NCBI RefSeq assembly: GCF_964204645.1
Contig: NC_134025.1
Location: 11,721,001 to 11,785,000 of the forward strand
Length of the DNA stretch: 64,000 nucleotides
Reading direction: 5' to 3'
Source of the DNA: Tubulanus polymorphus
Lineage: Eukaryota; Nemertea; Palaeonemertea; Tubulaniformes; Tubulanidae
Below, in pieces: positions 19,212-59,220 of this stretch. The position numbers and the translations under genes are program-made. The notes beneath the pieces are model-generated. The model saw only the letters and a list, made by a program, of their open reading frames with translations. It had not been told where the DNA came from and made no database searches. How positions within the stretch are numbered: position 1 is the first letter of the stretch; each line of letters begins with the position of its first letter.

Positions 19212-20630
19212 CTACTCACTATCACTATTGCCCTCCGGGGCACAAACAGAGTTTTCCTGTTCGTAGATTCGTAGTATTCGTTCCCGAGCGGTATCGGCAG
19301 CTTGTCTTCTGGGCCGAGTGTCCGAGCGCGACGAGTCACACGATTGACTATTAGTCGGTTGTAGTTCCTCCGGATATGAACAGGTAACTTCTAACGGCAC
19401 TAATTTAGCTAGCGGCCTGTTCGTGATTCCGTTGGCGGTACGTAGAGAAGCTGATCGAGGGAACCCGTCTCTCCCATACTTAATATCAATAATAATTCCC
19501 ATCTTCCACTTTACCCGGGGAGAATCATCACAAATATGTACCAAATCCCCTTTTTTAACCTTGATGTCATAATGACCAGAGGAGTTTGTAAAGCGTTCAC
19601 GTAGTGATGTAAGGTATTCCTTACGCCATCTTGCCCATAATTGTTGGAAAACAAAACTCATGTGCTTCATGCGTGAGGTCAAACTTGCACTCGTCAGAAA
19701 GTCTGGATCAGATAAGTTATCTGATTCAAGTTTAACATGGGGAAGGTTTCTAATACGACGACCGTGAATTAAATGTGCAGGAGTTATAGGTTCGGGGTCA
19801 TCAAAATTTGATGACATGTAGGTAAGAGGTCGATCGTTGACGACTGCCTCGATTTCTGAAACGATTGTTATCAATTCAGTGCTAGAAACGCGTGCGCGAC
19901 CTAAAACCTTCTTCAGACAAGTCTTAACGATGCCAACCAGCCGTTCCCAATACCCTCCCATCCAAGGGGCACGTTTGGGAATAAATGCCCACTCGACGTG
20001 CTCAATTGCCAGCTCATGTGTTAGAGAGGGAGAGGAAAGTAACGTTTTTATTTCTTTAGACGCGCATTCAAATGTCGAGGCGTTGTCAGACATCATTTTC
20101 TGCGGAGAGCCTCTGCGACTCGCGAATCTTCTAAAAGTATGCATGAAAATTTCCACTGATAAACATGGAACAACCTCTAAATGTACAGCTCTGGTGACTG
20201 CGCAGGTAAAGAGGCAGATGTACATTTTACCTGGTTCGTCTTTAACTGGAATTTCCCCAGTAAAGTCGACGCCGCAAATCGCGAAAGGTCGCATTTCGTT
20301 TACGCGTAGAGATGGTAAAGGTGGACTGCGTGGCGTCATGTACGACTTACCAATTACCTTTCTACAGATGATGCATTTTTGTATAATGGATTTAACGACT
20401 TGGCGCGCACGGGGCACCCAATACTTTTGACGCAATGTAGTCACCGTCTGTGTAACACCTACATGTTTGGAACGTTCATGGCTATCCCAAACGATAAGAG
20501 TAGTAAATTCATCGCGTGGTGGTAGTAACGCGGGAAAACGAGTCTCTGGAGCTAAATCACAATTATGTATACGCCCTGATGACCGTAAAACACGATTGTG
20601 GTCAAGGAATAACCGGAGCTGATTAATCAT
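19212..20630 (-). CDS. BEL/Pao integrase with C-terminal DUF5641 region
   Basis: 472 codons. Integrates element cDNA into host DNA. An H-x4-H...C-x2-C zinc-binding domain lies at about residues 51-90 (SHERSKH ... CIIC). The catalytic core follows, with Asp in GVDFTGE (~120), Asp in MSDNAS (~180) and Glu in GYWERLVG (~227). Near 360-410 is the DUF5641-type module usual in Pao (LVHICDD..., GRDGFPRSASLRTANG). The ATG overlaps the stop codon of the RT/RNase H frame (ATGA) and lies in the -1 frame. Known BEL/Pao elements encode a single polyprotein, so I read this as a one-base indel, though a frameshift or reinitiation site is possible. Confidence 0.93.
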   Translation of the reverse strand: MINQLRLFLDHNRVLRSSGRIHNCDLAPETRFPALLPPRDEFTTLIVWDSHERSKHVGVTQTVTTLRQKYWVPRARQVVKSIIQKCIICRKVIGKSYMTPRSPPLPSLRVNEMRPFAICGVDFTGEIPVKDEPGKMYICLFTCAVTRAVHLEVVPCLSVEIFMHTFRRFASRRGSPQKMMSDNASTFECASKEIKTLLSSPSLTHELAIEHVEWAFIPKRAPWMGGYWERLVGIVKTCLKKVLGRARVSSTELITIVSEIEAVVNDRPLTYMSSNFDDPEPITPAHLIHGRRIRNLPHVKLESDNLSDPDFLTSASLTSRMKHMSFVFQQLWARWRKEYLTSLRERFTNSSGHYDIKVKKGDLVHICDDSPRVKWKMGIIIDIKYGRDGFPRSASLRTANGITNRPLAKLVPLEVTCSYPEELQPTNSQSCDSSRSDTRPRRQAADTARERILRIYEQENSVCAPEGNSDSE

Positions 20631-22985
20631 AGGTTTAGATCTAGTACTCGTTTTAGTTCAATACATTCTATAATGTCATGATAATGAACCGACTGAGTCT
20701 GCTTCACTATTGCTAATTCAGCATCCTTGAGCTCAGACGCTGTAATCGGTTCCAGGTTTTTATTTCTCGATTTGAGACAAGAAACGAATCGTAATACGTA
20801 AGCCATGATGCGTAATACTTCCCGCAATGACGTGAATTGCGATACTTCAATAACAACGGGTCGGACATCAGAATTAGTCATTAATAACGATTTGCATTCT
20901 GTTTCAAACAATGAAATTTCAGGGAGATGGCTTGCGCTAGGATGAGTAGGCCAGTTATCTTTCCTTGAAAGCCAAGATGGGCCAGTCCACCACAAGGTAT
21001 CACTAGCGAGAGTGAAACTATCACAGCCCCTACTCAAAACATCACTAGGATTACTGCTAGATGGGACATAACGCCAGTTGTATTGTGATGTTAAACTACT
21101 GATCAAGTTTACCCTATTTCTTACGAATACTGGTAAGGATTTAGACGAATGAATCCATCCTAGTGTGACTAAACTATCAGACCAGAGAAAAACTTCTACA
21201 TCTAGTTCTGACCCTAGACTATCAACAATATGTTGGGCAAGTCGCGCCGCAACGACAGCGGCCGACAGTTCTAGTCTCGGTATAGACATCGACTTAACGG
21301 GAGCAACCCGGCTTTTAGACATAACGAGATAACTCGAAGTAATATCCGGAAAAGACAGATATGCGCAAGCGCCGAAAGCTTTTGCAGATGCGTCCGCGAA
21401 CACGTGTAGTTGTTCTGAACCGACACCGACTGTCGAGACAGGAGATCTAGGCACTGTGATGGATTCAACTGCTCTTTGGAGATCGCGTATAATCGGTAAC
21501 CACGAATCCAACACGGTGGCATCGAGCGGTTCGTCCCACTCTGTACCTAACGACCATAGATTTTGTATGAATATTTTGGCCCTAACGGTTATGGGTGCGA
21601 TGAACCCAAGTGGATCGTATACCTTACTTGCGTCACTTAAAATCTCGCGCTTAGTAGCAAAATTAGTTGTAATGCTGGGTTTTGTCGAGAAACTAAGTAA
21701 ATCATTATCAACATTCCAATGAAGACCTAGAAATTTAACGATATCTGACTCATCTAAGATCCCTTCAGAACGCGCGAGTTCGCGCGTAGATTTGCAATTT
21801 GTCGCCCAAGACCGCAAATTGAATTTTGCATCTGACATGATTTTGCGACTTTCGTGGAAATAGTGATCCAGCTGATCCGGGGATGAATATGAAACTCCAA
21901 AGTTATCAACATATACATTTGTAAGCATTGAAGATGCAACAGCAGTGCTGTATTCGGACAAATGTTTGATGACTGTAGAATTTAAGATAAAGGGAGATGA
22001 AGTTGCCCCAAATAAAACAACTTTGAACCTATAATGAATGAACCTACGCTCAGGATCAGCTGGGTCACTCAACCAGAGAAAACGAGTGTAATCTCTGTCG
22101 CTGTCTGTAAGCAATATTTGTAGAAAAGCCTTTTCTAAATCGGAGATGGCAGCGTACCCGTGAAGCCGAAAACGGATAAGAATGGATGTAATATCGTGTT
22201 GCAGTGGAGGACCGGCCTCCAAACAATCATTTAAGCTACGAGAATATCTACCTTCACTACAACTGCAATCAAAAACAATGCGTACTGGCGTTGTTGCAGA
22301 TTTGCGGAAAACAGGGTGGTGCGGGATATAATGCACATTATTCGAGTCAATTTCATCGGGCGGAATTTCTTCAATAAAATCGCGCGCTTTCTGATCATTT
22401 ATTAGATCAGAATAAAGTTTCAACATAGGAGGATCTTTAGCTAGTCGACGCGCCGTTGATCGCGTTCGTGCATTAGAAACACTGAAGTTTGAAGGTAGAG
22501 TGTCAAAATCGTCCTTCCATGGTAGCGGAGCAATATAACGACCGGTTTGATTTCTCGTAATTGTACTGTTATATCGATGCATGAAATCTAATGTATCGGA
22601 ATCATTGGTGTCCGTAAGAATCTGAATTTCCCAAAACTTCTGCAACTTTGCATTATCAGAAGAATGACTACGTACAATGGTAAGCATAGACAAAACAGTA
22701 GAAGTACGAGAATCATTATGGACAGGTCCAGATAAAACATACCCTACTTTGGTTTTGACAGCAATGGGATCAGACTCAAATGGACCCTTGATTAATTCAC
22801 CCTCAACTAATTTATAATACTGGTCGGCCCCTATCAGCATTTGTATGACGAATATGCCAGACATGGAAGTCGGAGGGTGAGCTAAGTCTAGGCCAATAAG
22901 ATGAGGACAATCCTTTGCTCTATTTACCGATGAAGTGCTAAGCGGTGAAGCAATCGTATCTGTTACGATTAGCTCAACTGTAACA
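20627..22985 (-). CDS. BEL/Pao reverse transcriptase and RNase H
   Basis: The polyprotein segment after the foldback. The open frame continues upstream of the first Met (22,864) to the foldback edge. It contains LIGADQYYKLVEGE (linker after protease), VRIVFDCSC, DLEKAFLQI (motif A Asp), RFKVVLFGATSSPF (motif B) and NVYVDNFGVSY. The last gives YVDN in place of the canonical YVDD. Then come Pao-type SKVYDPLGFIAP, an RNase H domain (HVFADAS, IPRLELSAA, LWSDSLVTLGWI) and YVPSSSNPSDVLSRG. This is the Pfam peptidase A17/Pao arrangement. It ends in a stop overlapping the integrase start. Confidence 0.93.
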
Positions 22986-22987
22986 AT

Positions 22988-24745
22988 AAACCATTTTACA
23001 GTTGCTAGCCGCCATTTTGTTAGGGTACTTTTGTCCCGTATTGTTGGGTCATTTTTTTCGTTTTTTTAAAAACTATCCGTGATGTGTATTGTATCATATT
23101 TCATCTGCCCATGGATGGATTTTGACAACTTCAGCAACATTCAAACCGCATAAATCTCTAGTTTTCAGTTATGTAAAAATCATTTCTCAAATTTACAACA
23201 ATGCGACATGAGAGCAATATAAAAATCGGTGGTCAGTTTTTGCCGTGCGCATAGAAATCCAGGGTACTGAAATTTGAAGTTCGTTATTTTCAGAAATAAT
23301 TTTCTAAAAAATCCAAACATTTCAAGCACTGTGCGCATAAACGCCCCCTTTCAGGTGAACTTTGAAATTTTAAGATATCTTGCCTAGTTTTTTTCCTATG
23401 GCACTTTAACTGCAGCGCGTGTATTGTCATTCCGAGATTCGGCGCTGTTTTCTTTGCGTGTATTTCAGTATATGGGTGTTATTTCTTCATTTTCACTACA
23501 CTTGTCTCTACGGAAAATGGTTTTAATTGTTGGTACGAGTATCAGGTTTAAATATTACGGCATTAATACTGTATTCCGTTCTCCGGCGCTAGTTCGTAAT
23601 GGCTGTAATGGTAGCCGCTTTTACGGCAGGCAGAGGCTTACGTACATGCACCCAAGAAAACCCAAAATATCACTCTTTTGTTGTAAATGCAATCCACACA
23701 CTTCTTGCGTTTTTGTGATGGTAGATGTCACTTTTTACTTTTTATCACGTGCGTCTGACATTCGAACTTGATACTTGATATTTCACCACCAAAACAAGAA
23801 AGTTTTCCTATATTTTCTTCCCAATCTAATCAATCTTGTGTGTACTTAATACAAAGTATTCATAGAAAGTAGCTGAATATTTGCCCCACCCCATTTGTCC
23901 AGCTTTTTGACCACTTCTCCATCCATCTAATTTCAGTAGATTTTTATGTAAATTTATTGATAGACTACTGATTTAAATGGTCATCATACTCGATTTTGAG
24001 TGATATATTTCTTTTCTTCTTCCATCTCAATATAGGCCCATATATTCTCTTCCCGCGCGCAACTTCGAATGCGTGATCAAAATGCCGCTCAGTCTCGCTG
24101 CTAAAACTGGTCAGAAAAATCCCTTAAACCCCAACATCTCTAATGTCTTCGACCTATTATATTGCATAAACGACGTGATATTTAAACCTGATACTCGTAC
24201 CAACAATTAAAACCATTTTCCGTAGAGACAAGTGTAGTGAAAATGAAGAAATAACACCCATATACTGAAATACACGCAAAGAAAACAGCGCCGAATCTCG
24301 GAATGACAATACACGCGCTGCAGTTAAAGTGCCATAGGAAAAAAACTAGGAAAGATATCTTAAAATTTCAAAGTTCACCTGAAAGGGGGCGTTTATGCGC
24401 ACAGTGCTTGAAATGTTTGGATTTTTTAGAAAATTATTTCTGAAAATAACGAACTTCAAATTTCAGTACCCTGGATTTCTATGCGCACGGCAAAAACTGA
24501 CCACCGATTTTTATATTGCTCTCATGTCGCATTGTTGTAAATTTGAGAAATGATTTTTACATAACTGAAAACAAGAGATTTATGCGGTTTGAATGTTGCT
24601 GAAACTGTCAAAATCCATCCATGGGCAGATGAAATATGATACAATACACATCACGGAGGGTTTTTAAAAAAGAGAAAAAAATGACCCAACAATACGGGGC
24701 AAAAGTACCCTAACAAAATGGCGGCTAGCAACTGTAAAATGGTTT
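22988..24745. mobile_element. 1.76-kb foldback (long-TIR) DNA transposon, non-autonomous
   Basis: Inverted arms of about 570 bp (22,988-23,556 and 24,178-24,745) begin AAACCATTTTACAGTTGCTA and include GCCGCCATTTTGTTAGGGTAC. They surround a unique loop of about 620 bp with no recognisable transposase. A 2-bp AT abuts each end. Taking out the arms plus one AT restores the open BEL/Pao frame across protease and RT, which fixes the boundaries well. Arm divergence is a few percent. Confidence 0.9.
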
Positions 24746-24747
24746 AT

Positions 24748-26382
24748 TTCAGTCCGACACTGAATGGCTAAATTCACGACGTCCATTACTCGACATTCAG
24801 AAGTTTCCGCGCCGAATCCTGATAGTTCTATTATTTCGCGTCTAATAGGCTTTAAATCCAAGGAAGTGGCTAAATCTTGCGAAATAAACGACCGTTGCGA
24901 GCCGTCATCAAATACTAGGTTCGCTGATGCGCATGAATTCTCGACGTTAGGGACAAAAACGCTGACGACCGCGGTTTTCAGAAGTATTGCATTATCAGAA
25001 CTAGTAAACATTTGAGTTGTGCGATTACGACGCGGCGCGGGACGTGAAACAGTCCGAGGTATAGAGCGTGGAGCAGGACGTGGCACGGTATTGTTTACTG
25101 GCTGTATACCTGAGGCCTGTTGTTCATTCGACTTAAAAGTTTGACCTTGCATGTTGCTGTTCAAAATATCAGGACATATGCTACTGTGGTGCTTACGCTT
25201 GCAAGTTTTGCAATTAAATCGAGATGTACATGTAGCAATTCTATGAGGGCCTAGACAGTTATAGCACAAATTGTTGGTTTGTATAAAGGCAATGCGTTGG
25301 TCACGCGTTACAAACTCCCTGCAATTCCCCGTGTAATGATCGTTTGAACGACAAAAAGTACACGTGAATGATTTAGGTCCAAACCCGGGTGATGTGGAAG
25401 GTACAACACGATTTAAACTAGAATTTTGACCATTCGCCCCCTTTTGGGCAACTACTAAACTAAGGGATTTAACCCCATCGAATCCAGCTTCTAACACGTC
25501 GACTTCTTTCAATAAAAACAGTCTCAGTTCCGATAGAGTATACCTTTGATTACCGTTATAGCGCACAATACTACATCTAACGTTAGACGGAAGTTTATTC
25601 CAGATTAATGAAACAAGCATATCGCTGTAGGACATATCACCTAATGTTTCAAGAGACCTAATATGACACTCAATTCTATCTCGAAAATTTCGTAATGACG
25701 TCAGGTTATATGACGGTGCGGGTTCCGACATCAGAGCTTGCATGTGAGCATCAATGATAAGGTGCTCTTGGCCATAGCGTTGCGTTAAAATATCGATGGC
25801 GTGATGATAATTTGACTCAGTGAGAGTGAGTCCTTGTATTGAACTCAACGCTGATCCGGACAGAAGAGATTTCAGATATTGGAATTTCTGGACCGGTGCG
25901 ATATTTGAAACTGAATGGACTGCTGCAGCGAACGAATCCCAAAACGGTAACCAATTCATAATCTCCCCATTAAACTCTACCAATACTAATTTTGGCAAGT
26001 TGGTTCTGGGTGACGCAAGTTTAGAGGCATTGCTCATCGGTGGAGGCTCTACGGAATTATATGAGGAAATGTATTGTTCGTAAAACAACTTACGATCTAT
26101 CGCGTCTCCGATTACCGATTCCGCTTCATCTGCAATTGTCGCGTACAGGGTGTCGCACGTGACCATTTCCAACATGGAATCGTTGATGATTGACAGCTCA
26201 TGTATCTTATCTTCAAGCCTCTTGATTAAGCGCTGAAGTTTTTGCAGATCTGGAAGTTGAGCTGTCTGGGTATTGACGATTGTGTCTGCGTCTTTGCAGA
26301 TCTTAGTAACCTGTCCTCTTTGAGCAGATCTTTTCCGGAAGAGAGCCTGGTATTCGGACGAGTTGGTGACTTCTTCGCCCAT
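24748..26382 (-). CDS. BEL/Pao Gag and protease
   Basis: Begins MGEEVTNSSEYQALF at 26,382. An N-terminal coiled-coil region (~15-100) is followed by a Pao Gag (DUF1759-like) segment near 130-290 (MNWLPFWDSF, LKSLLSGSA, RYGQEH). Three Cys/His knuckles come next at about 335-400 (CTFCRSNDHYTGNC, CYNCLGPHRIATC, CKTCKRKHHSSIC). The retropepsin-like domain (DUF1758) from about 475 carries LVFDDGSQRSFI, so the active-site D-S/T-G is D-D-G here. Coding ends where the foldback begins. About 20 further codons before the frame's stop are foldback sequence. Confidence 0.92.
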
Positions 26383-28729: not shown

Positions 28730-30490
28730 TTATCTACGATAGGTATCATCTTCGAGATTAAGGCCGCAGGGGGACAACGTATTAAGTTTGTGGATGTAGA
28801 ATGATTCCTTGAGGCGACGTTCAGAAGTAGATTCTACGCTTTCAATGGCAGTAACCGAGATATCTGACAGGCTGTGATTGTTTGAATTGAAATGTTGTGC
28901 AACGAGGGTGTTAGTGTGATTTTTGGTGATAGAATAAAGATGCTCCCTGAATCTATCACCTAATCTTCGTCCTGTTTCACCGATATATTTGATATCACAT
29001 TTGAGGCAAATGAGGCAATAAATGACGTTAGCACTAACGCATGAGAAGGACTGTTTTATACGGACGGATGAATGGCTCCCCACGATAGATTCAATATTAC
29101 CTATTACATGATCACATGTTTTACAAATTCTGCGTTGACAAGGGAAAGTGCCAGGAATTTCACATTCCTTATTTAGTTTAGTACGCACGAGCTTACTCCC
29201 AATACATCTGTCATTTTTGAAGCAGGTAAGGAGGTAACTGTCAAAAAGGTGTCCAATGTCATTGTCCTCGGATAGAATGTGAAAGTTACGTTTGATGGCA
29301 CGTGCGACTTTAGAACTATATTGATTGAATGTAAGAACTAGAGGAATTTTATGTTCGGAGCTTTTCACGGTTGTGGTCAGAGTGGTAGATCTTTCTATTC
29401 TACGGCATTTGTCAAGAGCTCTTGATAGGAGATTTTCAGGATAGCCACGTTCAGAGAAAAATATTCTCATGTCGTTAGATTTAATTTTGAAGTCCTGATT
29501 GTCAGAACAAATACGCCTTAGTCGCAAGAATTGGCTAAATGGTATGCTATTGATACATTTAGATGGATGGTTTGAATCATATCGAAGATAGCTGTGTGAG
29601 TCGGTGTTTTTATAGTGGACTGACGTTTCAATTTTGTTCGGTCCAACACTAAATATGGTGTCAAGAAAAACCTCGGATGTATCAGATATGGAGTGAGTTA
29701 CTTCGATGGACCTATGAAAGCTATTGAAACTTTCGATAAAGTTTTCCAAATTCTCGCGTGACATATCGGTTTTACCCGCAACATCGTCAATAAATCTAAC
29801 ATAAATGTCCGGTATGGGGCCTTGGAAGCTATCGAAAAAGCATTTCTCAAGATGCCCCATGAAAATATTAGCGTAAACAGGCCCAAATCGAGTTCCCATG
29901 CTAACTCCCGATACTTGGTCGTAAAAACGACCATTAAATTCAAAACAATTTCTTGTGAGCACCAGTTCAGCAAGACGCAAAATAGTGACAGTAGGTATAA
30001 CTGGGTTGCGGTTAAGATCTAAGTAATATTTGAGGGCACGGAGGCCATCAGCATGGGGAATGTTAGTATATAAGGATTTTACATCCATGGTAAATAATAG
30101 CGTATTTTCGGAAACAGGTACATCCTTAATTAAATTGAGAAAATGGGTAGTATCCCTTACATATGATGGTAGTGTGGTGACAATATGTTGGAGGTGATCA
30201 CTTAAAAAGTGTGAGATTCTTTCAGTCGGGCAAGAACATGCTGACACAATCGGTCGGCCGGGATTGTTAAGTTTGTGAATTTTAGGAAGCATATAAAATA
30301 TACTACACCTGGGTACATTATTGATAAGCGATGCAGCCGTTTCAGGTAGATTGCCTAAATTAATTTCTTGTTTTATAATAGTAGCAATATAGTCATTGTT
30401 TTCGATAGTTTTATCGGTTGATAGTTCCACATAAAAGTTCGAGTCTCTGAGTTGACGTTCAGCTTCATTTATGTATAGTCCTTCTGCCAA
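28730..30490 (-). CDS. Penelope-like RT with GIY-YIG endonuclease
   Basis: 586 codons. The RT is related to telomerase and makes cDNA primed at the target. Motif A is LLFTMDVKSLYTNIPH (~130), motif B GVSMGTRFGPVYANIFMG (~195) and motif C YVRFIDDVAG (~230, FIDD intact). A Cys-rich linker (CQRRICKTC) leads to a GIY-YIG domain from about 490: VIYCLICLKCDIKYIGETGRRLGDRFREHL, with a conserved Glu near RRLKESFYI. All catalytic residues I can check are present. It overlaps the upstream frame by about 22 nt in another phase. Confidence 0.93.
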   Translation of the reverse strand: MAEGLYINEAERQLRDSNFYVELSTDKTIENNDYIATIIKQEINLGNLPETAASLINNVPRCSIFYMLPKIHKLNNPGRPIVSACSCPTERISHFLSDHLQHIVTTLPSYVRDTTHFLNLIKDVPVSENTLLFTMDVKSLYTNIPHADGLRALKYYLDLNRNPVIPTVTILRLAELVLTRNCFEFNGRFYDQVSGVSMGTRFGPVYANIFMGHLEKCFFDSFQGPIPDIYVRFIDDVAGKTDMSRENLENFIESFNSFHRSIEVTHSISDTSEVFLDTIFSVGPNKIETSVHYKNTDSHSYLRYDSNHPSKCINSIPFSQFLRLRRICSDNQDFKIKSNDMRIFFSERGYPENLLSRALDKCRRIERSTTLTTTVKSSEHKIPLVLTFNQYSSKVARAIKRNFHILSEDNDIGHLFDSYLLTCFKNDRCIGSKLVRTKLNKECEIPGTFPCQRRICKTCDHVIGNIESIVGSHSSVRIKQSFSCVSANVIYCLICLKCDIKYIGETGRRLGDRFREHLYSITKNHTNTLVAQHFNSNNHSLSDISVTAIESVESTSERRLKESFYIHKLNTLSPCGLNLEDDTYRR

Positions 30491-40660: not shown

Positions 40661-40755
40661 TTTCGTTGTCAATTGTCGGACTGTCGTTGTCTTATCTAAG
40701 GTAACCCGAATATGAGTCGTCCCACCAAAAATCACTCCTTATCGCCGAATCGTAT

Positions 40756-42017
40756 TGATCCACAGCTAGATTTTCGTAGTAACTGAAAATGTTTCGTAGT
40801 ATTTAGAAATGTTCTTAATGTTGTTTCCGTATGCGTGGGGGTTACGCTAAAGCCGTCAGACAAGAACGTACTAGTAGTAAGAATTACGAAAGTTCTTGTT
40901 TGATGCTTTCATCTACCAACGCAAACCATAAATCAGTCTATAAACAACAATTCTTTCTCGGTTCTTCTGCTGTGAGATCTGGCAAACATTCAGAAAATCT
41001 TTATATAAAACTTTTAAATAGTTGGAACCATATTTGGTTGGGTCGGAACAATGGAGTGTATTTATAATGAGGCTCGTGAAGGGATCACGCTGATACTTGA
41101 TGATATTCCCGGCTACTTTCCGTAAAAGGAAAAACCGGAAGTTTAGGAAGATGTGGTTGTTTTGCTTATCCTGTATTAAAATAGAATTAGTTAAATTGTA
41201 GATAAAATAATTAGTATAAGTATTTCAAATAATTTAAGAATTGATAATCAATCACAATGTATTCCGAATCGTAGTTAATTATAATAATTAAAAAAGAAAC
41301 AATGAATTTGTACTGTAATTAGAAAAGAAAACAAAGTTTTGAAAAGATATTTAATTTGAATATCCTAGATGTTAAATGAGAACAAAGTCTCTATAATCGC
41401 TAATGTTTTAGACAAATTAATTTGTGTTAAATGTTAAAACTAGCTGTCTGAAGTTTCTGTTGTCTGTATGCGCTCGTTGGTAATTCACAGACAATAGCTG
41501 CTCTCTCAACAACGACTAGCAAGGAGTGAGTAAATCACAACGCGTCATGACAGGAGGGTTGGAAGGAAAAAGTTAGTTTAGCAAATCAGTTTTGAAAATA
41601 ATTTTAGATCAGCGAATCATTAAGGCCAAATTCTATATGACCAAAACAGTCACGACAGTAACGTTGCTGCTCCTTGCCAAAAGTCGAGTGGGAGAGTCGG
41701 TATTTTAAGAATGCCGATTCTTTCTGTAAAAGGGACCCGCATCTTGAGAGAGCAGTTAATCGGGAGAATCTGTACCTTAGTAAGACGAGTGTCGACAGCA
41801 GGACAGGAGAAGCTTCGGAACGATAGGGATTCATATAATAGGGATTAGGAAAATCATTCTCAGGTTCAAGGTAAATAGAATATATTATCTTCAATATTAT
41901 CATCCGGTATTTCAGTTTATTCATTCAGATTTGTGCACGGACACGTTCTCTCGCCAGGGCCTTACTCAAGTATTTTAATAGATAACGATTAAAGAGAGGA
42001 TTGTGACCGGTGTATCA
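40756..42017 (+). repeat. Ty3/gypsy element B 5' LTR
   Basis: 1,262 bp, TGATCCACAG to GGTGTATCA, about 98-99% identical to 46,974-48,227 (small indels near 41,410 and 41,822). It is preceded by GTAT (40,752-40,755), the target duplication. A TATA-like TGTAAAAGGG at 41,725 lies ahead of CTTGAGAGAGCAG. Confidence 0.93.
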
Positions 42018-42018
42018 C

Positions 42019-42031
42019 TGGTGCCGAAACC
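42019..42031 (+). promoter_or_regulatory. Element B primer-binding site (tRNA-Phe)
   Basis: TGGTGCCGAAACC starts one base after the LTR. It is complementary to the 3' end of animal tRNA-Phe(GAA), whose acceptor ends GGTTTCGGCACCA. The match is shorter than the 18-nt match in element E. Confidence 0.85.
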
Positions 42032-42084: not shown

Positions 42085-42204
42085 ATGGTTCGAATTTTTA
42101 TTTGTTCACACTGTGGTGAGAAGAACGCTTTTTCAAAGAAGCGCCGCACTCCAGTAAACAGGCCGACACAGGCATTGTGGGATTCGAACCCACCCCGTGC
42201 ATGA
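42085..42204 (+). CDS. Leader ORF with CxHCG knuckle (element B)
   Basis: 39 codons from the first ATG after the primer-binding site: MVRIFICSHCGEKNAFSKKRR, then LWDSNPP and a stop. The N-terminus matches the leader ORF of element D (55,541). CSHCG with a basic FSKKRR tail could be half a zinc-binding ribbon. The stop falls inside the first T-arm unit. The same frame continues for a second LWDSNPP-type unit before another stop. Function unknown. Confidence 0.5.
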   Translation: MVRIFICSHCGEKNAFSKKRRTPVNRPTQALWDSNPPRA

Positions 42205-42429
42205 CCATTTCAGATCCCGGAGGAACTTCGAGAGCCGTCGTGGGATTCGAACCCACCACTGCACGCTCATGTGTAATACCGGAGGAGTGTCGGGGACCTC
42301 TGTGGGATTCTAACCCACTCGCCATGCAGGTCGACACCGATGGGGCTGCACTACAGCCATTGAGGGGTTCGAACCCTCCACCTTGTGAATTGCCAAAACC
42401 GTCCAGCCAGGATGGGGAATCGAACCTAC
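42177..42429 (-). repeat. Antisense tRNA T-arm array, element B
   Basis: Five units at about 42,177, 42,240, 42,302, 42,362 and 42,413 (steps 63, 62, 60, 51). Each carries GTGGGATTCGAACCCAC or a variant: GTGGG-ATTCTAA-CCCAC, GAGGG-GTTCGAA-CCCTC, TGGGG-AATCGAA-CCTAC. On minus this is the T-stem, seven-base T-loop TTCGAAT and B box of a tRNA. It lies between the primer-binding site and gag. Confidence 0.85.
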
Positions 42430-43564: not shown

Positions 43565-45508
43565 GTGGGGTCGCGCAATGAATGGTCAACTGAGCCCTCG
43601 CCGGACTCGTTAATAAGGAGTGATTATTGGTGGGATGACACATATTCGGGTTATCATAGTTATGATAATGACAGTCCGGTAATTGATAGTTATATCTGTG
43701 ATGATGATGATTATTTTGAGGACGATAGGGATGATATATTTGACATGTCATTTGATCAGGGCGACATGCTAGCTGACTCATTTTCTCTTTATTTTGAACC
43801 TGAGGGGAACTGTAATGCAGATTACTTAGATGACACTGAACCTTTACATTTAGATAAGTTTATTGATTATCACACTCCTTCATGGGGTGCCGATGACGTT
43901 TATGACATTCAAGATCGTAACTTTGGGGATAGCTGGAGGGACAATTCTCAGTTGTCGTTAGATGGAAATTTTTATATGGATCAGGGATCCAATTTTGAGG
44001 ACATCTGGAAGGACAATTCCCAGTTGTCGGCTACTTACGGGCATATAAATAGACACAGGAGGGTTACGTTTAGCGATCCGGTTAAATTGCAGGAGGTACG
44101 TGCTGATATGGCGTGCTCAGGTGACAATCTTAGTATTGATAGGTCGCACCCTAGAGGGGTTAATGGTCCGACGGTTTCGGCAGAAGATGACCTTTTTAGA
44201 GATAGGAAGTCTCATTTGGATTGTCACAAAGGCGCTCTTGGTCAGCATAGGTACCCAACAACCTTCGAATCAGCAATACAATGTGATCTTGTGTCATCAG
44301 GTTCAAGTAGTAGTAATAATTCACGATCGGAATGTCTTAATGATCAGAGCAATATGGAAACTATTTTGTCAAAGATATCTAGTCAGGAGTCAATGTCGGA
44401 GAATTTGTGTCACTCGTTTGAAAGAGGACAGAACTTTCCTGTCACCTCAAATGCCAGCAGTTTTCACCATCCAGTTGGGGATGGAATGTCCCATGAACAG
44501 GACAGAGGTCAAGTTGTCCTCACGTCTAAACCGAATATGCCAATCAACGAAAAGGTTGGGATAGGAGATTCGAACTCCGATTGTCAACCAACTGTTCACT
44601 GTCAGGAACAATTTCCACCTGTTATGATGACTTTAGGTTACACGTCAACCAACGACATAGGGTCCTTTTCCAGTCAGAACAACACTATTGGACAGGAGGC
44701 TTATTCCCCGTCAATCATGGCAACTGCCGCCAACCGAGTGACTGGTAGTCATTCAGGGACACCGTTAAACATTTTGATTGATACGGGTGCCGATATTTCT
44801 GTAGTGTCAAACAATTACTTCATCAATCATCCTCAGATATCGAATGGCCCTTTGCAGGAGGGACAATTTCAGTCCGCCCGTGGGGTAGATGGTACTAAGT
44901 TTTATTTAAAAGGTGTTATTTCCGTAGATTTTGTATTAGGAAATTTGGACGTGTCGCACTCTATGTACGTGGTCGACGGTATCACGTCCGATGTAATTCT
45001 CGGAGTTGATTTCCTGGAACGAAACCAGGCAGTTATCGATTATGCTAAAAAGGCTCTCTTGTTGCCAGGCGCCGACATAATTTACTTTAGTAATGATGTC
45101 ATCTTGGGGAAATCTTCGTCGGTTAAAGTCACGCGTATGACTGTTATTCCCCCTTCATGCGATGTCACCGTAGACCGTAAGTGGTTAATTGACAAGTCTC
45201 AGTCATCGATTGCAGCCTTTGAGCCTGTTCATGATTTGAGAATGCGTGATCTCATGAGCGCAAGGTCAGTTGTTAGCGTCATGCCATCAAGGCATAGGCT
45301 TCGACTCACGAACCCTACGTCACGACACGTCTCCCTCTTTGAAGATACGTGTCGTAGTGATTCGTGGACAGATGGGTGGTCACTTGACCGATCACTCAAA
45401 ACAGAGGCGAAGTCAGGACAGCTTCCTCGGCCACCGGAGGTGTCTATCACACATGTGGAAGACCCTCAGACGTCAGACGAAATTTGTAAGTATAATCGAA
45501 TTATTTAG
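43565..45508 (+). CDS. Element B acidic linker and retropepsin
   Basis: 647 codons, open throughout, without an ATG at its start and in a different frame from gag, so frameshifted expression is likely. Residues ~20-190 are strongly acidic and Tyr-rich. From ~380 the retropepsin follows: HSGTPLNILIDTGADISVVS with D-T-G, QSARGVDGTKF, MYVVDGITSDVILGVDFLE and VIDYAKKALLLPGA. A tail with FEPVHDLRMRDLMSARSVV, usual before the RT, then ends. No RT follows. The function of the acidic linker is unknown. Confidence 0.88.
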   Translation: MGSRNEWSTEPSPDSLIRSDYWWDDTYSGYHSYDNDSPVIDSYICDDDDYFEDDRDDIFDMSFDQGDMLADSFSLYFEPEGNCNADYLDDTEPLHLDKFIDYHTPSWGADDVYDIQDRNFGDSWRDNSQLSLDGNFYMDQGSNFEDIWKDNSQLSATYGHINRHRRVTFSDPVKLQEVRADMACSGDNLSIDRSHPRGVNGPTVSAEDDLFRDRKSHLDCHKGALGQHRYPTTFESAIQCDLVSSGSSSSNNSRSECLNDQSNMETILSKISSQESMSENLCHSFERGQNFPVTSNASSFHHPVGDGMSHEQDRGQVVLTSKPNMPINEKVGIGDSNSDCQPTVHCQEQFPPVMMTLGYTSTNDIGSFSSQNNTIGQEAYSPSIMATAANRVTGSHSGTPLNILIDTGADISVVSNNYFINHPQISNGPLQEGQFQSARGVDGTKFYLKGVISVDFVLGNLDVSHSMYVVDGITSDVILGVDFLERNQAVIDYAKKALLLPGADIIYFSNDVILGKSSSVKVTRMTVIPPSCDVTVDRKWLIDKSQSSIAAFEPVHDLRMRDLMSARSVVSVMPSRHRLRLTNPTSRHVSLFEDTCRSDSWTDGWSLDRSLKTEAKSGQLPRPPEVSITHVEDPQTSDEICKYNRII

Positions 45509-46973
45509 AGTTTGGATCAAGATGCATACGTCCTATTGAAAATTATGAATTGTATACGGTAAGCGTCTCTTCAGTAAGTTATCGAAATATAATTACATAA
45601 GTGTTGTGAAACTGAAGTATATATAACGCATTGTTGCCAATGAGTTAACTCCTGATCTGGGTTTAATCTAATATAGGAGATAAAGACAACCATAAATAAA
45701 GTGAATAATAGCTTGATTGTCGTGATATTGGTTTTTTTTTCGCTGAAATATCACTAGTCTCTAGGGTTTATTATCCGTAGTCTGAATGGATGTCATTGAT
45801 TGTCAGTTAGAAAAGAAAGAGTTATGAAATTTTTATATAATCTCTGTGTTTTTATTTGATTGTAAGGTACCCTTATCGGATTTGTGAAGATGAGACCGTC
45901 GGGATATGACAGCACTACGATGGAAGAATGTCTTCTTCTGTCAACCGCAATAGATGTTGACGGGTACCCCCCTGATAGTGACCATATGGAGATGGGGACT
46001 TGTTGGGAGGTATCCTGAAACTCTATTCGACGCAACTGATAGTATGATAAACCAGCAACTGGTATGCTCTGGTCGAGATGGGTGATATTAATTCACCGAT
46101 TCGTCAATTAACGAGGAAAAAGGAACAACTATATACAGCCTACAACAACGATCTAGGGCGTTGCTGTTTCAACGGGATGGAATCATGCTCGATGATTAGT
46201 CATGCGATTCTGGCCATTGTTAGTGGTGTTTGTCACTCTCGAAGACCTGTTATATACTCACAAACTTAAGTGATGAAGGGTGGACAAAGACACCTGGCCA
46301 ATGCGATACGAAATATGAAGAAAAGTGATAATTTCCGTAGACATTTTAGCGGAGTAAAGCCGAGTGTGCTCAAGATGGCTCCCGTGTAGTTACATTAACA
46401 TTCGATGGAATGTTGTTCGCTCAAGCCGTAAGATGCGAATACATTACTGTTCCGTTTCTATATTAACTGTGGAGAAAAGACTCCGATATAGTAACCGTAG
46501 TACTATAGCGTCTATGAATAACGAGCAAGTATCAGCTGAACATCAATGCGTTTTGCCGTACTATCGACGTTGCAGTACGCGCTTCGAGGAACTGCGGTGG
46601 ATGACGTCATTCGTCCGTCCATGACGTACTTTGTTGTGTCTGGTAGCTGTTGCGTCACTTCGCGGTAAATTCTAAACTCAAACTGTGAACTGTTTTGTGC
46701 TTAACTTTCGACTGTTTAGTGTGCGGGGACAGCGGTCTCGAATGAACTTTTTTCCGATTGGGTATCCAGAACTTTAAATGCGGTTTTATGATAAACTATA
46801 TCATGAACTTTAATATGCGTTGTAGTGTCGAACTCTAAGAAATAGTTACTCGTTATAATGAATTGTTTACTAATGTTCTTTTTCAGGATTTGTTCTAGAG
46901 GTATCAGCGGGATATTCACGAGTTGGTTTAAATTCAAAATTTCGGGACGAAATTTAAACTGGATAGGGAGTGT
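45509..46973 (+). other. Element B internal region replacing pol
   Basis: Lies between protease and 3' LTR. It has short plus-strand frames only (46,078-46,269 and 46,364-46,624), no RT, RNase H, integrase or envelope motif that I recognise. The last bases, GGACGAAATTTAAACTGGATAGGGAG (near 46,944-46,970), are the usual purine-rich priming region. It may be a captured sequence or a badly decayed third ORF. Confidence 0.5.
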
Positions 46974-48227
46974 TGATCCACAGCTAGATTTTCGTAGTAA
47001 CTGAAAATGTTTCGTAGTATTTAGAAATGTTCTTAATGTTGTTTCCGTATGCGTGGGGGTTACGCTAAAGCCGTCAGACAAGAACGTACTAGTAGTAAGA
47101 ATTACGAAAGTTCTTGTTTGATGCTTTCATCTACCAACGCAAACCATAAATCAGTCTATAAACAACAATTCTTTCTTGGTTCTTCTGCTGTGAGATCTGG
47201 CAAACATTCAGAAAATCTTTATATAAAACTTTTAAATAGTTGGAACCATATTTGGTTGGGTCGGAACAATGGAGTGTATTTATAATGAGGCTCGTGAAGG
47301 GATCACGCTGATACTTGATGATATTCCCGGCTACTTTCCGTAAAAGGAAAAACCGGAAGTTTAGGAAGATGTGGTTGTTTTGCTTATCCTGTATTAAAAT
47401 AGAATTAGTTAAATTGTAGATAAAATAATTAGTATAAGTATTTCAAATAATTTAAGAATTGATAATCAATCACAATGTATTCCGAATCGTAGTTAATTAT
47501 AATAATTAAAAAAGAAACAATGAATTTGTACTGTAATTAGAAAAGAAAACAAAGTTTTGAAAAGATATTTAATTTGAATATCCTAGATGTTAAATGAGAA
47601 CAAAGTCTCTATAATCGCTAATGTTTTAGAAAAAATTTGTGTTAAATGTTAAAACTAGCTGTCTGAAGTTTCTGTTGGCTGTATGCGCTCGTTGGTAATT
47701 CACAGACAATAGCTGCTCTCTCAACAACGACTAGCAAGGAGTGAGTAAATCACAACGCGTCATGACAGGAGGGTTGGAAGGAAAAAGTTAGTTTAGCAAA
47801 TCAGTTTTGAAAATAATTTTAGATCAGCGAATCATTAAGGCCAAATTCTATATGACCAAAACAGTCACGACAGTAACGTTGCTGCTCCTTGCCAAAAGTC
47901 GAGTGGGAGAGTCGGTATTTTAAGAATGCCGATTCTTTCTGTAAAAGGGACCCGCATCTTGAGAGAGCAGTCAATCGGGAGAATCTGTACCTTAGTAAGA
48001 CGAGTGTCGACAGCAGGACAGGAGAAGCTTCGGAACGGATTCATATAATAGGGATTAGGAAAATCATTCTCAGGTTCAAGGTAAATAAAATATATTATCT
48101 TCAATATTATCATCCGGTATTTCAGTTTATTCATTCGGATTTGTGCACGGACACGTTCTCTCGCCAGGGCCTTACTCAAGTATTTTAATAGATAACAATT
48201 AAAGAGAGGATTGTGACCGGTGTATCA
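46974..48227 (+). repeat. Element B 3' LTR
   Basis: 1,254 bp, near-identical to the 5' LTR. It ends GGTGTATCA, followed by GTAT (48,228-48,231), the right target duplication. TGTAAAAGGG lies at 47,940. The identical 78-codon frame seen in both LTRs (MRGGYAKAV...) is only LTR sequence. Confidence 0.93.
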
Positions 48228-49426: not shown

Positions 49427-49825
49427 CTAAGGGCAGACTGACTTTCCGAAAATTGGCCTCCCTCTGGGTGACAGATCCAACGGTTGGTCAACCGCAGATG
49501 CACCTAAGGAGAAGTCTAGTGGAAAATTTTGGACTTGTGTGCCCGAAGGTCCGCACAACAATTGGCCAGCTATGGGCGTATCAACTACTAACGGTCTGTT
49601 TTTGAAAGATCGAGTTACAGACAGGTCTGCCGGTTGCTCTATGTTGAATTGACCAATGCCTATAGGTGGACCAGGCGGCTGCGAACAACAGCACGAAATA
49701 CTCGAGCCGCTGGAACCCGTTGATCCAGCTGATGACGGCGGCCGTGTGGAAGGTTCACCAGTCCGTATCGAGCAATACCGGTTCGAATCCGTACTCGTAG
49801 GACTTAGGGGCGGAGGAGGGGTCAC
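49427..49825 (-). CDS. Leader ORF with PxDLS-like motifs (element A)
   Basis: 132 codons upstream of gag in element A. Ser/Thr/Pro-rich N-terminal half with a TDSNR segment encoded by another T-arm-like sequence, then EQPADLSVTR, NFPLDFSLG and DQPLDLSPRG near residues 68, 109 and 120. PxDLS is the consensus binding motif for the co-repressor CtBP, and PLDLS is its best-known form. No counterpart was seen in elements B or E. The frame is intact, but the surrounding element is decayed. Function is inferred from a short motif only. Confidence 0.4.
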   Translation of the reverse strand: MTPPPPLSPTSTDSNRYCSIRTGEPSTRPPSSAGSTGSSGSSISCCCSQPPGPPIGIGQFNIEQPADLSVTRSFKNRPLVVDTPIAGQLLCGPSGTQVQNFPLDFSLGASAVDQPLDLSPRGRPIFGKSVCP

Positions 49826-50178: not shown

Positions 50179-50553
50179 TTATTCAAAATAGCTGTATATC
50201 CGCCACTTGTCAGCCAACAATACGTCGTGATCAGGGATAGCGCATAAACTGAAATCCCCCTGATCCCAGGTAGACGAATAAGTTAACCTACTGGGTGGAG
50301 GGTTCGAATCCCTCAGTGTCTGTCCAACGGCTCCATTGTTGGTGGTACCCTTGGTGCTGAGTGTGTTCGAATCCAACAGTGGCTGTTCGACAGCACTGTC
50401 GTTGGTGGTACCCTTGGTGCTGAGTGCGTTAGAGTCCCACAGTGGCTCCCTTAAATGAGCTCATACCTCCCAATAAGACTTGGGAACTGGGGCAAGCGTG
50501 TGTGTCTTGTAAACCGTTGCCCCACAGTGACCACACTTCAACCCAACGGACAT
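50179..50553 (-). CDS. Leader ORF CGHCG + LDSN repeats (element A)
   Basis: Starts MSVGLKCGHCGATVYKTHTL at 50,553. It meets one in-frame TGA at 50,461 and otherwise stays open to 50,179. After the stop are two and a half 21-residue repeats, PLWDSNALSTKGTTNDSAVE-like, encoded by the T-arm units, then DSNPPPSRL and DFSLCAIPDHDVLLAD. The element D frame at 56,130-56,435 has the same domains in the same order without the stop. Conservation of ends as well as repeats argues for a real protein. Function unknown. Confidence 0.55.
50298..50440 (+). repeat. T-arm array, element A
   Basis: Three T-arm-like units in sense orientation on plus (antisense to element A): GAGGGTTCGAATCCCTC, GTGTGTTCGAATCCAAC and GTGCGTTAGAGTCCCAC, each 63 nt apart. 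The first is a perfect stem and B box. The others have lost some pairing. Confidence 0.8.
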
Positions 50554-55469: not shown

Positions 55470-55484
55470 TGGTGCCGAAACCCG
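55470..55484 (+). promoter_or_regulatory. Element D primer-binding site (tRNA-Phe)
   Basis: TGGTGCCGAAACCCG, two bases after the LTR end. 15 nt complementary to the tRNA-Phe 3' end. Confidence 0.88.
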
Positions 55485-55540
55485 TACTGTTTATCAGTTG
55501 CCGGAAATTTTTTTTGCATTGATCAATCATTGTTGTTCGA

Positions 55541-55633
55541 ATGGTACATATTTTTGTATGTTCTCATTGTGGTGCGAAGAACGTGTTCTCTAAGAAGCGG
55601 CGCACCACAACCGACTCGACACGCGGAAAGTAA
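55541..55633 (+). CDS. Leader ORF with CxHCG knuckle (element D)
   Basis: 30 codons: MVHIFVCSHCGAKNVFSKKR, a short Arg/Thr tail, and TAA. It matches the element B leader ORF residue for residue over the first 20 positions apart from conservative changes. The TAA is directly followed in the same frame by the long LWDSNP repeat frame (55,634-56,071), so a single stop codon separates two parts that are joined in element B. Confidence 0.55.
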   Translation: MVHIFVCSHCGAKNVFSKKRRTTTDSTRGK

Positions 55634-56071
55634 TTGTGGGAGTCGAACCCACCTAGTATACAACCATTTGAAATTCCGGCGGAGTTTCCGGAACCATTGT
55701 GGGATTCGAACCCGCTGCCCACTCCGGTCATCCCTGTTGTTGAGACATTGCGGGATTTGAACTCGCGCTGTACGCGACCATTCGAAATTTCGGAAGAGCA
55801 TAGGGAGCCATTGAGGGATTCGAACCCGCTGCCGACTTTGGCCGTCTTTGCTGAGCCTTTGCAGGATTCTAACCCAACTGCTACACAGCACGAGGCCTCA
55901 GTTTCGATCACATCAAGGGATTCGAACCCCCTAGAACGCCGGCAAAGGGTAAAGCCGGTGAGAGTGCCGGAAAAACTCGACCCATTTTGGGCACATTTCT
56001 TTCGCGATTTTGCCAACCCGGCCGAGTTGTTCTTCGGTGACGCAGGCGGCAACTTTCTTTGTCCAGCCTAG
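55634..56071 (+). CDS. Leader repeat ORF, element D
   Basis: 145 codons, no ATG at its start. Six copies of a (L/S)(W/R/Q)(E/D)SNP-type motif are encoded by the T-arm units, with PFEIPAEFPEP and PFEISEEHREP between some. The end, KLDPFWAHFFRDFANPAELF, then FGDAGGNFLCPA and stop, recurs in element A (FWAHLFRDFANPAELYFGD). The conserved C-terminus is hard to explain unless the frame was once translated. Function unknown. Confidence 0.5.
   Translation: MWESNPPSIQPFEIPAEFPEPLWDSNPLPTPVIPVVETLRDLNSRCTRPFEISEEHREPLRDSNPLPTLAVFAEPLQDSNPTATQHEASVSITSRDSNPLERRQRVKPVRVPEKLDPFWAHFFRDFANPAELFFGDAGGNFLCPA
55636..55931 (-). repeat. Antisense tRNA T-arm array, element D
   Basis: Six units at 55,636, 55,699, 55,750, 55,813, 55,861 and 55,915 (steps 63, 51, 63, 48, 54, all multiples of three). 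Stems vary: GTGGG/CCCAC, GTGGG/CCCGC, GCGGG/CTCGC, GAGGG/CCCGC, GCAGG/CCCAA, CAAGGG/CCCCCT. The seven-base loop stays ATTCGAA or one change away. CCATTG precedes several units. Confidence 0.87.
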
Positions 56072-56129
56072 ACCGGGGAACTACCGTTAGTTGATATCAT
56101 CGCGATTGTCTGTTTTTTGTTGTTGATGC

Positions 56130-56435
56130 ATGTTAGTTGGGTTGAAGTGTGGTCACTGCGGGGCAACGGTTTTTAAAATGCGCACGCTTGCCCCAGTTCA
56201 CGAGTCTAGTCGGGAGGTACCGGCTCGCATATTAAGGGAGCCACTGTGGGATTCGAACCCACTCGGCACCAAGCGTACTACCACCGACGGAATTGTTGAA
56301 CAGCCGCCGAGGGATTCAAACCCTCCACCCAGCAGGTTGCTTTATAAGGCTACCCGGCATCGGGGGGGGGGGGATTTTAGTTTATGCGCTATCCCTGATC
56401 ACGACGTATTGTTAGCCGACAGGTCACATGTTTAG
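56130..56435 (+). CDS. Leader ORF CGHCG + DSNP repeats (element D)
   Basis: 101 codons, fully open from an ATG: MLVGLKCGHCGATVFKMRTL, then PLWDSNPLGTKRTTTDGIVE, PPRDSNPPPSRL and DFSLCAIPDHDVLLADRSHV. It aligns end to end with the element A leader ORF (50,553-50,179). The CGHCG pair with a basic tail suggests metal binding if a partner supplies the other ligands. Two T-arm units (56,246 and 56,309) lie within it, 63 nt apart. The best-preserved copy in the window. Confidence 0.6.
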   Translation: MLVGLKCGHCGATVFKMRTLAPVHESSREVPARILREPLWDSNPLGTKRTTTDGIVEQPPRDSNPPPSRLLYKATRHRGGGDFSLCAIPDHDVLLADRSHV

Positions 56436-58015: not shown

Positions 58016-59220
58016 ATGACGACTCGAAGTCGGGCCCAATGGAATCCAGGTACGGCTGCTGATTATTCGGTCAGCAATGACACAGTCATGCGGGCGCTGA
58101 CCGGGCTTCAAGAGCAGATGGGCTCAGCAGCAGCATTTGTCAATTATAGCCTGCTTTCAAAATTCACGGGGCGAGATAAGCAAAATGTAGATGAATGGTT
58201 TAGGGGATTTGATAGGCTCGCCAACCTCAGAGGCTTGACCACTGAGGACAAAAAGAAACAGATATTCTGGTTTCTGTCCGGACCAGCTTTGGTCCTTTTT
58301 AACGATTTTAATGCATATCGACCAAGAGATTGATGCAGCTGGCGAACGTATAATGACCCCATGGGATAACATCGTGGCGGCTTTTATCAAACAATTAAGC
58401 CCCACGTCGTGGGCTTTTAGTCAGAGAATCTGCCCTGACAACTATGAAACAGGGAGAGGGGCAACCGATTGACCAGTTCGCCGAGGACATCGATCGGATG
58501 GCCTCTGGCTTATAGTTTTCAGATCATCAAAAGAAAATGTTGTTGATAAACAACTAAAAGCCAGAAATTTCCGTTTATCTGGTCTCCCAGCGGCCCGCTT
58601 CTTTTAGAGATGCCTGGGAGGCCGGTAGGATGGCGGAACACATAGAGAAAAAGAAGAAAACTGCCCCCACGGTTAATCAGCTTGAGGCAAGCCCGAATAA
58701 GGAGGTACGAGAAGTCACGGCTGAATTGCGTGACAAGTTCAAACAACTCATGTCAACTCAGAATAGGGATTCGAACCCTAGACATCATGACCAGCATGAG
58801 AGGGGAGTATCTCCAGATGAAAGGCAATCTCTACAGAGATCAAGTGGAGGGAGCGTGATTTGTTACCGCTGCCACGCCCCGGGACATTACGCCCGTAACT
58901 GCCCTACCTGGCAAGTGGACCAAGGATATCAGAGGCGTCCAGATGACAGAAATGTTAATAATTCTAGCCCGGCAAACACTAGACGATATAACAATAGAAG
59001 ATTTAGCAATCAACGCTCAATTTTGAATAGGCCAAATCAGGGAAATGCCATGGGACCTCATCATGGTATACCACTTAATATTCTTATTGACACCGGCGCG
59101 GAAATATCAGTTTTAAATAGTGGTTGTTTACATAGGAATTCGCAGATTCAGTCAGGTGAAACGCGAGAAGGACTATCCCATTCTGCTCGTGGGGTAGATG
59201 GTAGTAAGTTTGGAGGAGTA
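58016..59220 (+). pseudogene. Element E Gag and protease start
   Basis: Begins MTTRSRAQWNPGTAADYSVS at 58,016. The capsid matches element B (SKFTGRDKQNVDEWFRGFDR, KKKQIFWFLSGPALVLFND). Frameshifts near 58,310 and 58,420 and stops near 58,514 and 58,557 break it. It is open again from 58,630: AEHIEKKKK, the zinc knuckle CYRCHAPGHYARNC (~58,862), then the protease start GIPLNILIDTGAEISVLNS (D-T-G). Between capsid and knuckle it has NRDSNPRHH, encoded by a T-arm-like sequence that element B lacks there. Confidence 0.88.
58768..58787 (-). repeat. T-arm-like hairpin within element E gag
   Basis: ATAGGGATTCGAACCCTA: a 5-bp stem TAGGG/CCCTA, loop ATTCGAA, with B box GGTTCGAATCC on minus. It reads RDSNP in the gag frame. 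Confidence 0.7.

Follow-up and report, generated by a model that had tools for sequence, protein, structure and literature searches.

The arrays of T-arm-like hairpins described here are repeats inside two small coding frames that lie between the primer-binding site (PBS) and gag of LTR elements, and these frames are open in several related element families. Superimposed on the protein code is a constraint that keeps the outer bases of the 17-nt unit paired, and the codons flanking the DSN residues are mutual reverse complements in most slots (clusters of units) of open copies. That the repeats encode a peptide and a hairpin at once is, taken as a whole, an even call in our estimate. A sequence-only reading had placed the arrays in a non-coding leader, a description that has to be given up because they sit in two protein-coding frames kept between families.

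The window (the whole stretch of 64,000 nucleotides that was analysed) contains T-arm-like units in three of its elements: eight in element D, five in element B and three in element A. These are the numbers counted earlier (6+2, 5 and 3), and the stems then named (GTGGG/CCCAC, GAGGG/CCCTC and GCGGG/CTCGC) were all located. The elements are provisionally labelled Ty3 on the basis of their gag and protease domains (PF00098 and PF13975), although such domains and LTRs also occur in other LTR groups. LTR direct repeats lie near 40752-42017 and 46970-48227. Priming by tRNA-Phe, as first proposed, holds up: the PBS TGGTGCCGAAACC fits the tRNA-Phe genes of the genome, whose 3' end is GGTTTCGGCA. The primer-binding sites, frames and arrays are as follows.

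42019..42031, plus strand: PBS of element B
42085..42204, plus strand: ORF1 of element B to its first stop; the array runs past that stop
42177..42429, plus strand: element B array, five units (starts 42177, 42240, 42302, 42362 and 42413)
50298..50440, minus strand: element A array, three units, within a relative of ORF2 (about 50182-50553)
55470..55483, plus strand: PBS of element D (tRNA-Phe), exact TGGTGCCGAAACCC
55541..56071, plus strand: ORF1 of element D (CSHCGAKN...KKRR, [W/R]DSNP repeats, tail DPFWAHFFRDFANPAELFFGD..FLCPA)
55636..55652, plus strand: element D unit 1, GTGGG-AGTCGAA-CCCAC
55699..55715, plus strand: element D unit 2, GTGGG-ATTCGAA-CCCGC
55750..55766, plus strand: element D unit 3, GCGGG-ATTTGAA-CTCGC
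55813..55829, plus strand: element D unit 4, GAGGG-ATTCGAA-CCCGC, 4/5 pairs
55861..55877, plus strand: element D unit 5, GCAGG-ATTCTAA-CCCAA, 2/5 pairs
55915..55931, plus strand: element D unit 6, AAGGG-ATTCGAA-CCCCC, 3/5 pairs
56130..56435, plus strand: ORF2 of element D (MLVGLKCGHCGATVF..., two units, tail GDFSLCAIPDHDVLLADRSHV), 101 aa
56246..56262, plus strand: element D unit 7, GTGGG-ATTCGAA-CCCAC
56309..56325, plus strand: element D unit 8, GAGGG-ATTCAAA-CCCTC

All five stem pairs are formed in 10 of the 16 window units, four in 2, three in 3 and two in 1. The pattern GGTTCGAATCC, with at most two mismatches, occurs 40 times on the two strands of the window versus 15.6 (sd 3.95) in shuffles, none of 100 of which reached 40. 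Among window hairpins with a 7-nt loop and at least five Watson-Crick pairs, the commonest loop is ATTCGAA (n=5), and the next reaches n=3 when TTCGAAT, its reverse complement, is left aside; the five ATTCGAA hairpins are not independent, since the elements are related.

For comparison between copies, a genome of 267.8 Mb in 77 contigs was searched. Sixty loci were obtained, 21 of which were removed by hand as the same places, and the 39 retained together with element A make up 40 stretches. Units were detected by at most three mismatches to GGATTCGAACC, a motif that biases the D, S, N and first P bases. The 40 stretches gave 308 units and 143 unique 41-nt sequences in 32 clusters; two clusters were removed as non-units, leaving 30 slots with 139 unique units, each slot being represented by its commonest unit. 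Because each of the two genome searches scored 40 of its 42 first candidates, more distant families may exist. In five related copies (L020, L026, L027, L032 and L058) the PBS is repeated two to four times in tandem, in steps of exactly 32 bp, a pattern that slippage duplicating the primer-binding region could leave.

ORF1 is open over 175-212 aa in three families (L010; L011-L016; L059-L061 with L063), with slight differences among copies. Its plan is MV(H/R)IF(V/I)CSHCGA(K/R)NAFSKKRR, which includes a CxHCG motif, followed by [W/R]-D-S-N-P repeats and a conserved tail, DPFW(A/V)HFFRDFANP...GYFLC. ORF2 is organised in the same way (CG(H/Y)CGATV, repeats, tail GDFSLCAIPDHNVLLADKSR) and measures 146 aa in one family, 101 aa in element D and about 105 in L061. 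Both proteins have one CxxC pair near the start, and ORF1 has a basic patch. Protein searches of the genome returned 85 matching pieces for ORF1 and 57 for ORF2, several per copy, with stops inside 4 and 10 of them, respectively. The point estimates of dN/dS are well below 1 for both frames. Outside the motif they are 0.15-0.35 for eight cross-family ORF1 pairs (L010, L012, L013, L059 and L063) and higher, 0.38-0.50, in pairs with L026; for ORF2 they are 0.15 for L013/L059, 0.22-0.55 in pairs with L009 or L019, and 0.06 in one partial pair. The two frames thus have the features of accessory ORFs, being open ahead of gag, kept across families and with dN/dS below 1. The spacings between units of element D (63, 51, 63, 48, 54 and 63) are all multiples of 3, as are most spacings in related copies, because the array is coding.

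The copies in the window are damaged. ORF1 of element D is broken by an in-frame stop (end at 55633), a stop falls within the match of its ORF2 to the longer relative, and element B has an early stop in ORF1. A phase change inside the array is common to about 20 copies of family B; related families have open copies. ORF1 and ORF2 of L013 had no relative at E <= 0.001 in a set of 5.8 billion proteins, at a reach of relatives sharing 5-residue words, and ORF1 had no match at E <= 1 among solved structures. In Pfam, ORF1 (L013, L059) and ORF2 (L013) gave nothing above the cut-off, the best hits being far below it (DUF7577 and DUF6451, E 0.025-0.22).

Pairing of the stems goes beyond what the peptide requires. 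In the 16 slots with W, the stem third bases are uniform (G in 14/14 L codons, C in 16/16 N codons and A in 16/16 P codons), while control P codons in the same slots use all four bases, both two before the W codon (10 slots, 1.69 bits) and next after the stem P codon (8 slots, 1.91 bits). This weakens a coding-only explanation, since the stem P codon is fixed while neighbouring P codons vary. Codon-level conservation with free third positions had been named in advance as the outcome that would account for the similarity; the codon-level conservation is there, but the stem third positions are not free. That stems change in pairs, as the sequence-only reading had noticed within the window, extends to the genome: the 25 W/R..P slot representatives are TGG/CCA (16), AGG/CCT (7) or CGG/CCG (2), with no other combination, and 85 of the 95 unique W/R..P units obey the same rule. 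Detection does not create this outer-stem pattern, because the outer stem bases are absent from the search motif.

Statistics over all slots agree. Stem cells are paired in 94.7% of cases versus 82.3% in shuffles (0/5000 reach this value), and pairing drops to 20-65% when the partner is slid by one to three columns. Paired cells with both sides changed number 15 versus 4.2 in shuffles (0/5000), and further pair types 8 versus 5.2 (81/5000). The top mutual information among all column pairs, 0.99, joins base 1, the first base of the W/R codon, with base 15, the synonymous third base of the P codon; the next value is 0.73. Five pairs are formed in 24 of the 30 slot representatives, four in 4 and three in 2, a count that masks units broken family-wide (unit 3 of L011-L016; units 5 and 6 of L009/L010). 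In addition, synonymous sites differ less inside motif codons than elsewhere in 14 of 15 ORF1 pairs. The loop bases, which are unpaired, are partly frozen too: the D codon is GAT in 11/11 cases in W slots, a figure biased by the search motif. The wobble counts point clearly to neither strand as the one that folds, with G-U 28 versus A-C 16 in the 139 unique units and 7 versus 6 in open-frame copies.

On a rough tree of the 30 slots, pair 2 changes on both sides on three branches, all ending paired, pair 1 on three branches, one of them ending paired, and pair 3 on one, which ends paired. When variants are included (67 sequences), both sides of pair 2 change on three branches, of which two end paired, and one side alone changes 22 times, leaving a pair in 13. 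Within slots, the pair is lost in 36 of 52 one-sided changes and survives in 3 of 5 two-sided ones; retention of pairs within slots is thus no better than chance, though many copies are decaying. One slot differs between copies in a paired manner, ORF2 unit 1 being TGG/CCA in L009 and CGG/CCG in L010. A function of the hairpin stays putative, because independent paired changes are few (about three).

The resemblance of the units to an antisense T-arm, also proposed from the window, is borne out for the main unit, which is the exact reverse complement (17/17) of the T-arm GTGGGTTCGAATCCCAC of four tRNA-Leu genes of the genome. These genes were called by ARAGORN on 20 fetched non-array genomic stretches, together with one tRNA of unassigned type; the others were uncalled. 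In the comparison with T-stems of the genome that was suggested earlier, tRNA-Leu matches and the primer does not: the T-arm of tRNA-Phe, CCTGG-TTCGATC-CCGGG, differs, which means that the units do not copy the arm of the primer tRNA. The comparison covered tRNA-Leu and tRNA-Phe genes; the oldest stem classes may derive from different tRNAs, and the unit may descend from an antisense T-arm. By the rules of tRNA structure, AUUCGAA, the loop of the plus strand, does not qualify as a T-loop. A whole antisense tRNA was considered as the unit and rejected, as no tRNA model matches in the window and the similarity ends, by eye, at the arm. Exact GGTTCGAATCC occurs 6017 times genome-wide versus 23 for the reversed pattern. 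These occurrences are not all element arrays; 20 sampled stretches (L069-L088, from the first listed places, contig C1) are, by eye, many different short repeats, several of them SINE-like.

Two further sequences were noted. In L001, at about 1500-1900, there is a tandem array of units of about 76 bp, each with GGGTTCGAATCCA and no T-stem. At 56263-56271, directly after the first ORF2 unit of element D, TCGGCACCA is identical to the final 9 nt of mature tRNA-Phe (the gene end with CCA added) and complements the start of the PBS; it is also present in L010 and altered in other families.

It is unlikely, in our view, that coding alone explains the arrays. On that account the repeat peptide arose from the T-arm of an antisense tRNA or SINE, units came from different tRNAs, and the paired stems were inherited and are unselected. 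The tRNA-Leu match of the main unit, the abundance of B-box-bearing repeats in the genome, the small number of double changes and the failure to hold off breaks within slots all fit such an origin. What it leaves unexplained is that the third positions in the stem stay fixed although nearby synonymous sites of the same units, only a few bases off, have diversified, and that a paired difference separates L009 from L010 inside one slot; it is also at odds with the window, in which tRNA models found no match (ARAGORN 0; Rfam 0 at gathering thresholds).

The same loop recurs in other genes of the window elements.

44563..44579, plus strand: hairpin GGAG-ATTCGAA-CTCC in the protease-containing frame of element B, read GDSNS
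49777..49793, minus strand: single unit TACGG-ATTCGAA-CCGGT, 3/5 pairs, in a third frame (ORF3, TDSNR) of element A
58764..58780, plus strand: single unit TAGGG-ATTCGAA-CCCTA in gag of element C, read RDSNP

The hairpins in the protease-containing frame of element B and in gag of element C share the phase GAT TCG AAC. In 11 fetched stretches related to the former, stem and loop are exact in six, one has a G-T pair, one a changed loop, and three are without the site; the frame itself has one weak protein match (E 7e-4). By eye, an outer second stem surrounds this hairpin (44545-44600; L117, L118), and in L118 the outer stem GTTGGGA/TCCCAAC brings it to about 11 bp in all. The gag unit of element C is identical in seven of eight fetched copies and cut at the loop in the eighth, L135 (C12:10401340-10401535), whose match starts exactly at the hairpin loop, possibly at a template-switch or deletion breakpoint. 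The ORF3 unit is TACGG/CCGNN, with the inner three pairs alone constant.

To explain the paired stems within the code, we propose that the units act in the genomic RNA, in its dimerisation or packaging, and that the object under selection would be either the hairpin or, just as well, a 16-bp duplex formed by two units. Our favoured role, a multivalent dimerisation or packaging signal carried in coding repeats, has appreciably less than an even chance of being right, and is preferred because the B-box core is lost with stems kept, because the loop is palindromic in about half of the slots, because units can form a 16-bp duplex, and because Ty3 and Ty1 offer precedents. The 6-nt palindrome of the loop (TTCGAA, UUCGAA in the RNA) is present in 16 of 30 slots and lost in 14. 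The leader ATTCGAA hairpins, like dimerisation hairpins, have a self-complementary loop near the 5' end, and the array occupies the region in which retroelements have their dimerisation and packaging signals. RNAfold paired units 1 and 2 of element B as a 16-bp duplex, and the energies of the main unit are -23.5 kcal/mol for the self-duplex versus -6.0 kcal/mol for the hairpin, the self-duplex value being matched by 56 of 200 shuffled loops. Of the 29 units in five folded leader stretches, 11 had inner stem pairs above a probability of 0.5, in competition with duplexes between units. Many copies of the unit might also make the decay of single ones tolerable.

In retroviruses such as HIV, loops of the DIS/psi region pair with each other close to the 5' end, and this pairing can spread into the stems. 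For yeast Ty3, dimerisation of the RNA in vitro proceeds through a single 6-nt palindrome (DS/PAL6), located at the tip of a short hairpin close to the 5' end and, by its coordinates, in the GAG frame (PMC11381356); the present array could be a multivalent form of that hairpin, with 5 to about 12 repeats spread over separate frames ahead of gag instead of one site, UUCGAA in about half of the slots, and a putative role. Kissing loops have been proposed for Ty1, again as loop-loop pairing near the 5' end that can extend into stems (PMC5454406). The arrays described here differ from both Ty1 and the retroviral signals in being arrays, in dual coding and in losing the palindrome in part of the units.

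To our knowledge, few LTR elements carry genes ahead of gag. Ogre has an additional ORF of 550 codons between LTR and gag (PMC1142308), and ORF0 of Retrosat2 is possibly another (PMC3485330). These are plant elements, whereas the proteins described here are short, repeat-built, CxxC-bearing and without a found homologue. In the parts of the open-licence PMC literature covered, no dual-coded hairpin array in orphan accessory frames was found described. Within that coverage, an ORF between LTR and gag (Ogre) and palindromic hairpins as single sites are already known, and a hairpin array dual-coded in orphan accessory frames is new.

The proposal in its most specific form, which we hold only tentatively, is that a T-arm-like palindromic hairpin was made into a dual-coded multivalent RNA signal in which each repeat of the two orphan accessory proteins doubles as one hairpin and the codons flanking DSN are kept as reverse complements whatever amino acids they encode, the array steering dimerisation, packaging or primer capture of the genomic RNA. 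If this is true, an LTR element can multiply a cis-acting component of its RNA and conceal it in repeat-built accessory genes, with pairing imposed on codons and two orphan frames added ahead of gag. The system would be a clean test case, as peptide and hairpin are separable by synonymous differences.

Correction of quasi-palindromes is a known process, and stems could match without selection if template switching during reverse transcription corrected imperfect palindromes. The elements are reverse-transcribed, and the match of L135 begins exactly at the loop, as switching there would leave it; still, we consider this improbable, as breaks within slots are mostly unrepaired, and such upkeep alone does not explain frozen third bases across the W class or one loop reused in unrelated genes.

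Equally improbable is a docking role, in which the units, being complementary to the T-loop, would recruit tRNAs, the primer tRNA-Phe among them, much as U5 contacts the TpsiC arm of the primer tRNA in avian retroviruses. UCGAACC is retained in 21 of 30 slots and is able to form a 7-nt pairing with the GGUUCGA of tRNA-Phe, a sequence that is, however, common to many tRNAs. In L062, L065 and L066 the last unit has the loop GATCGAA, which complements every base of TTCGATC, the T-loop of tRNA-Phe, but the remaining loops do not follow that T-loop, 9 of 30 slots lose the matching bases, and pairing with a tRNA would need no paired stems.

A DNA-level role of the B boxes as TFIIIC sites, acting as an insulator or transcription brake, would be the TFIIIC version of the Su(Hw) insulator of Drosophila gypsy. 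That insulator, too, is an array in a Ty3 element, placed between PBS and gag; unlike the present one, it consists of protein-binding DNA sites, non-coding and without hairpin constraint. We regard the TFIIIC role as very improbable: the minus-strand B-box loop core, as given by the general consensus, is kept in 22 of 30 slots, more than the palindrome, with several sites per element, but it is not kept at every site, being lost in 8 of 30 slots that retain at least 4/5 stem pairs; the outer stem bases are constrained although they lie outside the B box, whose binding does not need them; and the protease-frame unit of element B has AG/CT in its stem, not GG/CC. The loss of the core with stems kept and the different stem in that frame disfavour TFIIIC recruitment, one of the roles first suggested for the arrays, as a common constraint.

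The window also contains retroelements of other types on the minus strand: a BEL/Pao-type element at 20627-26382 (Peptidase_A17, RVT_1 and DUF1759), and a Penelope-like reverse transcriptase with a weak GIY-YIG match at 28730-30490.
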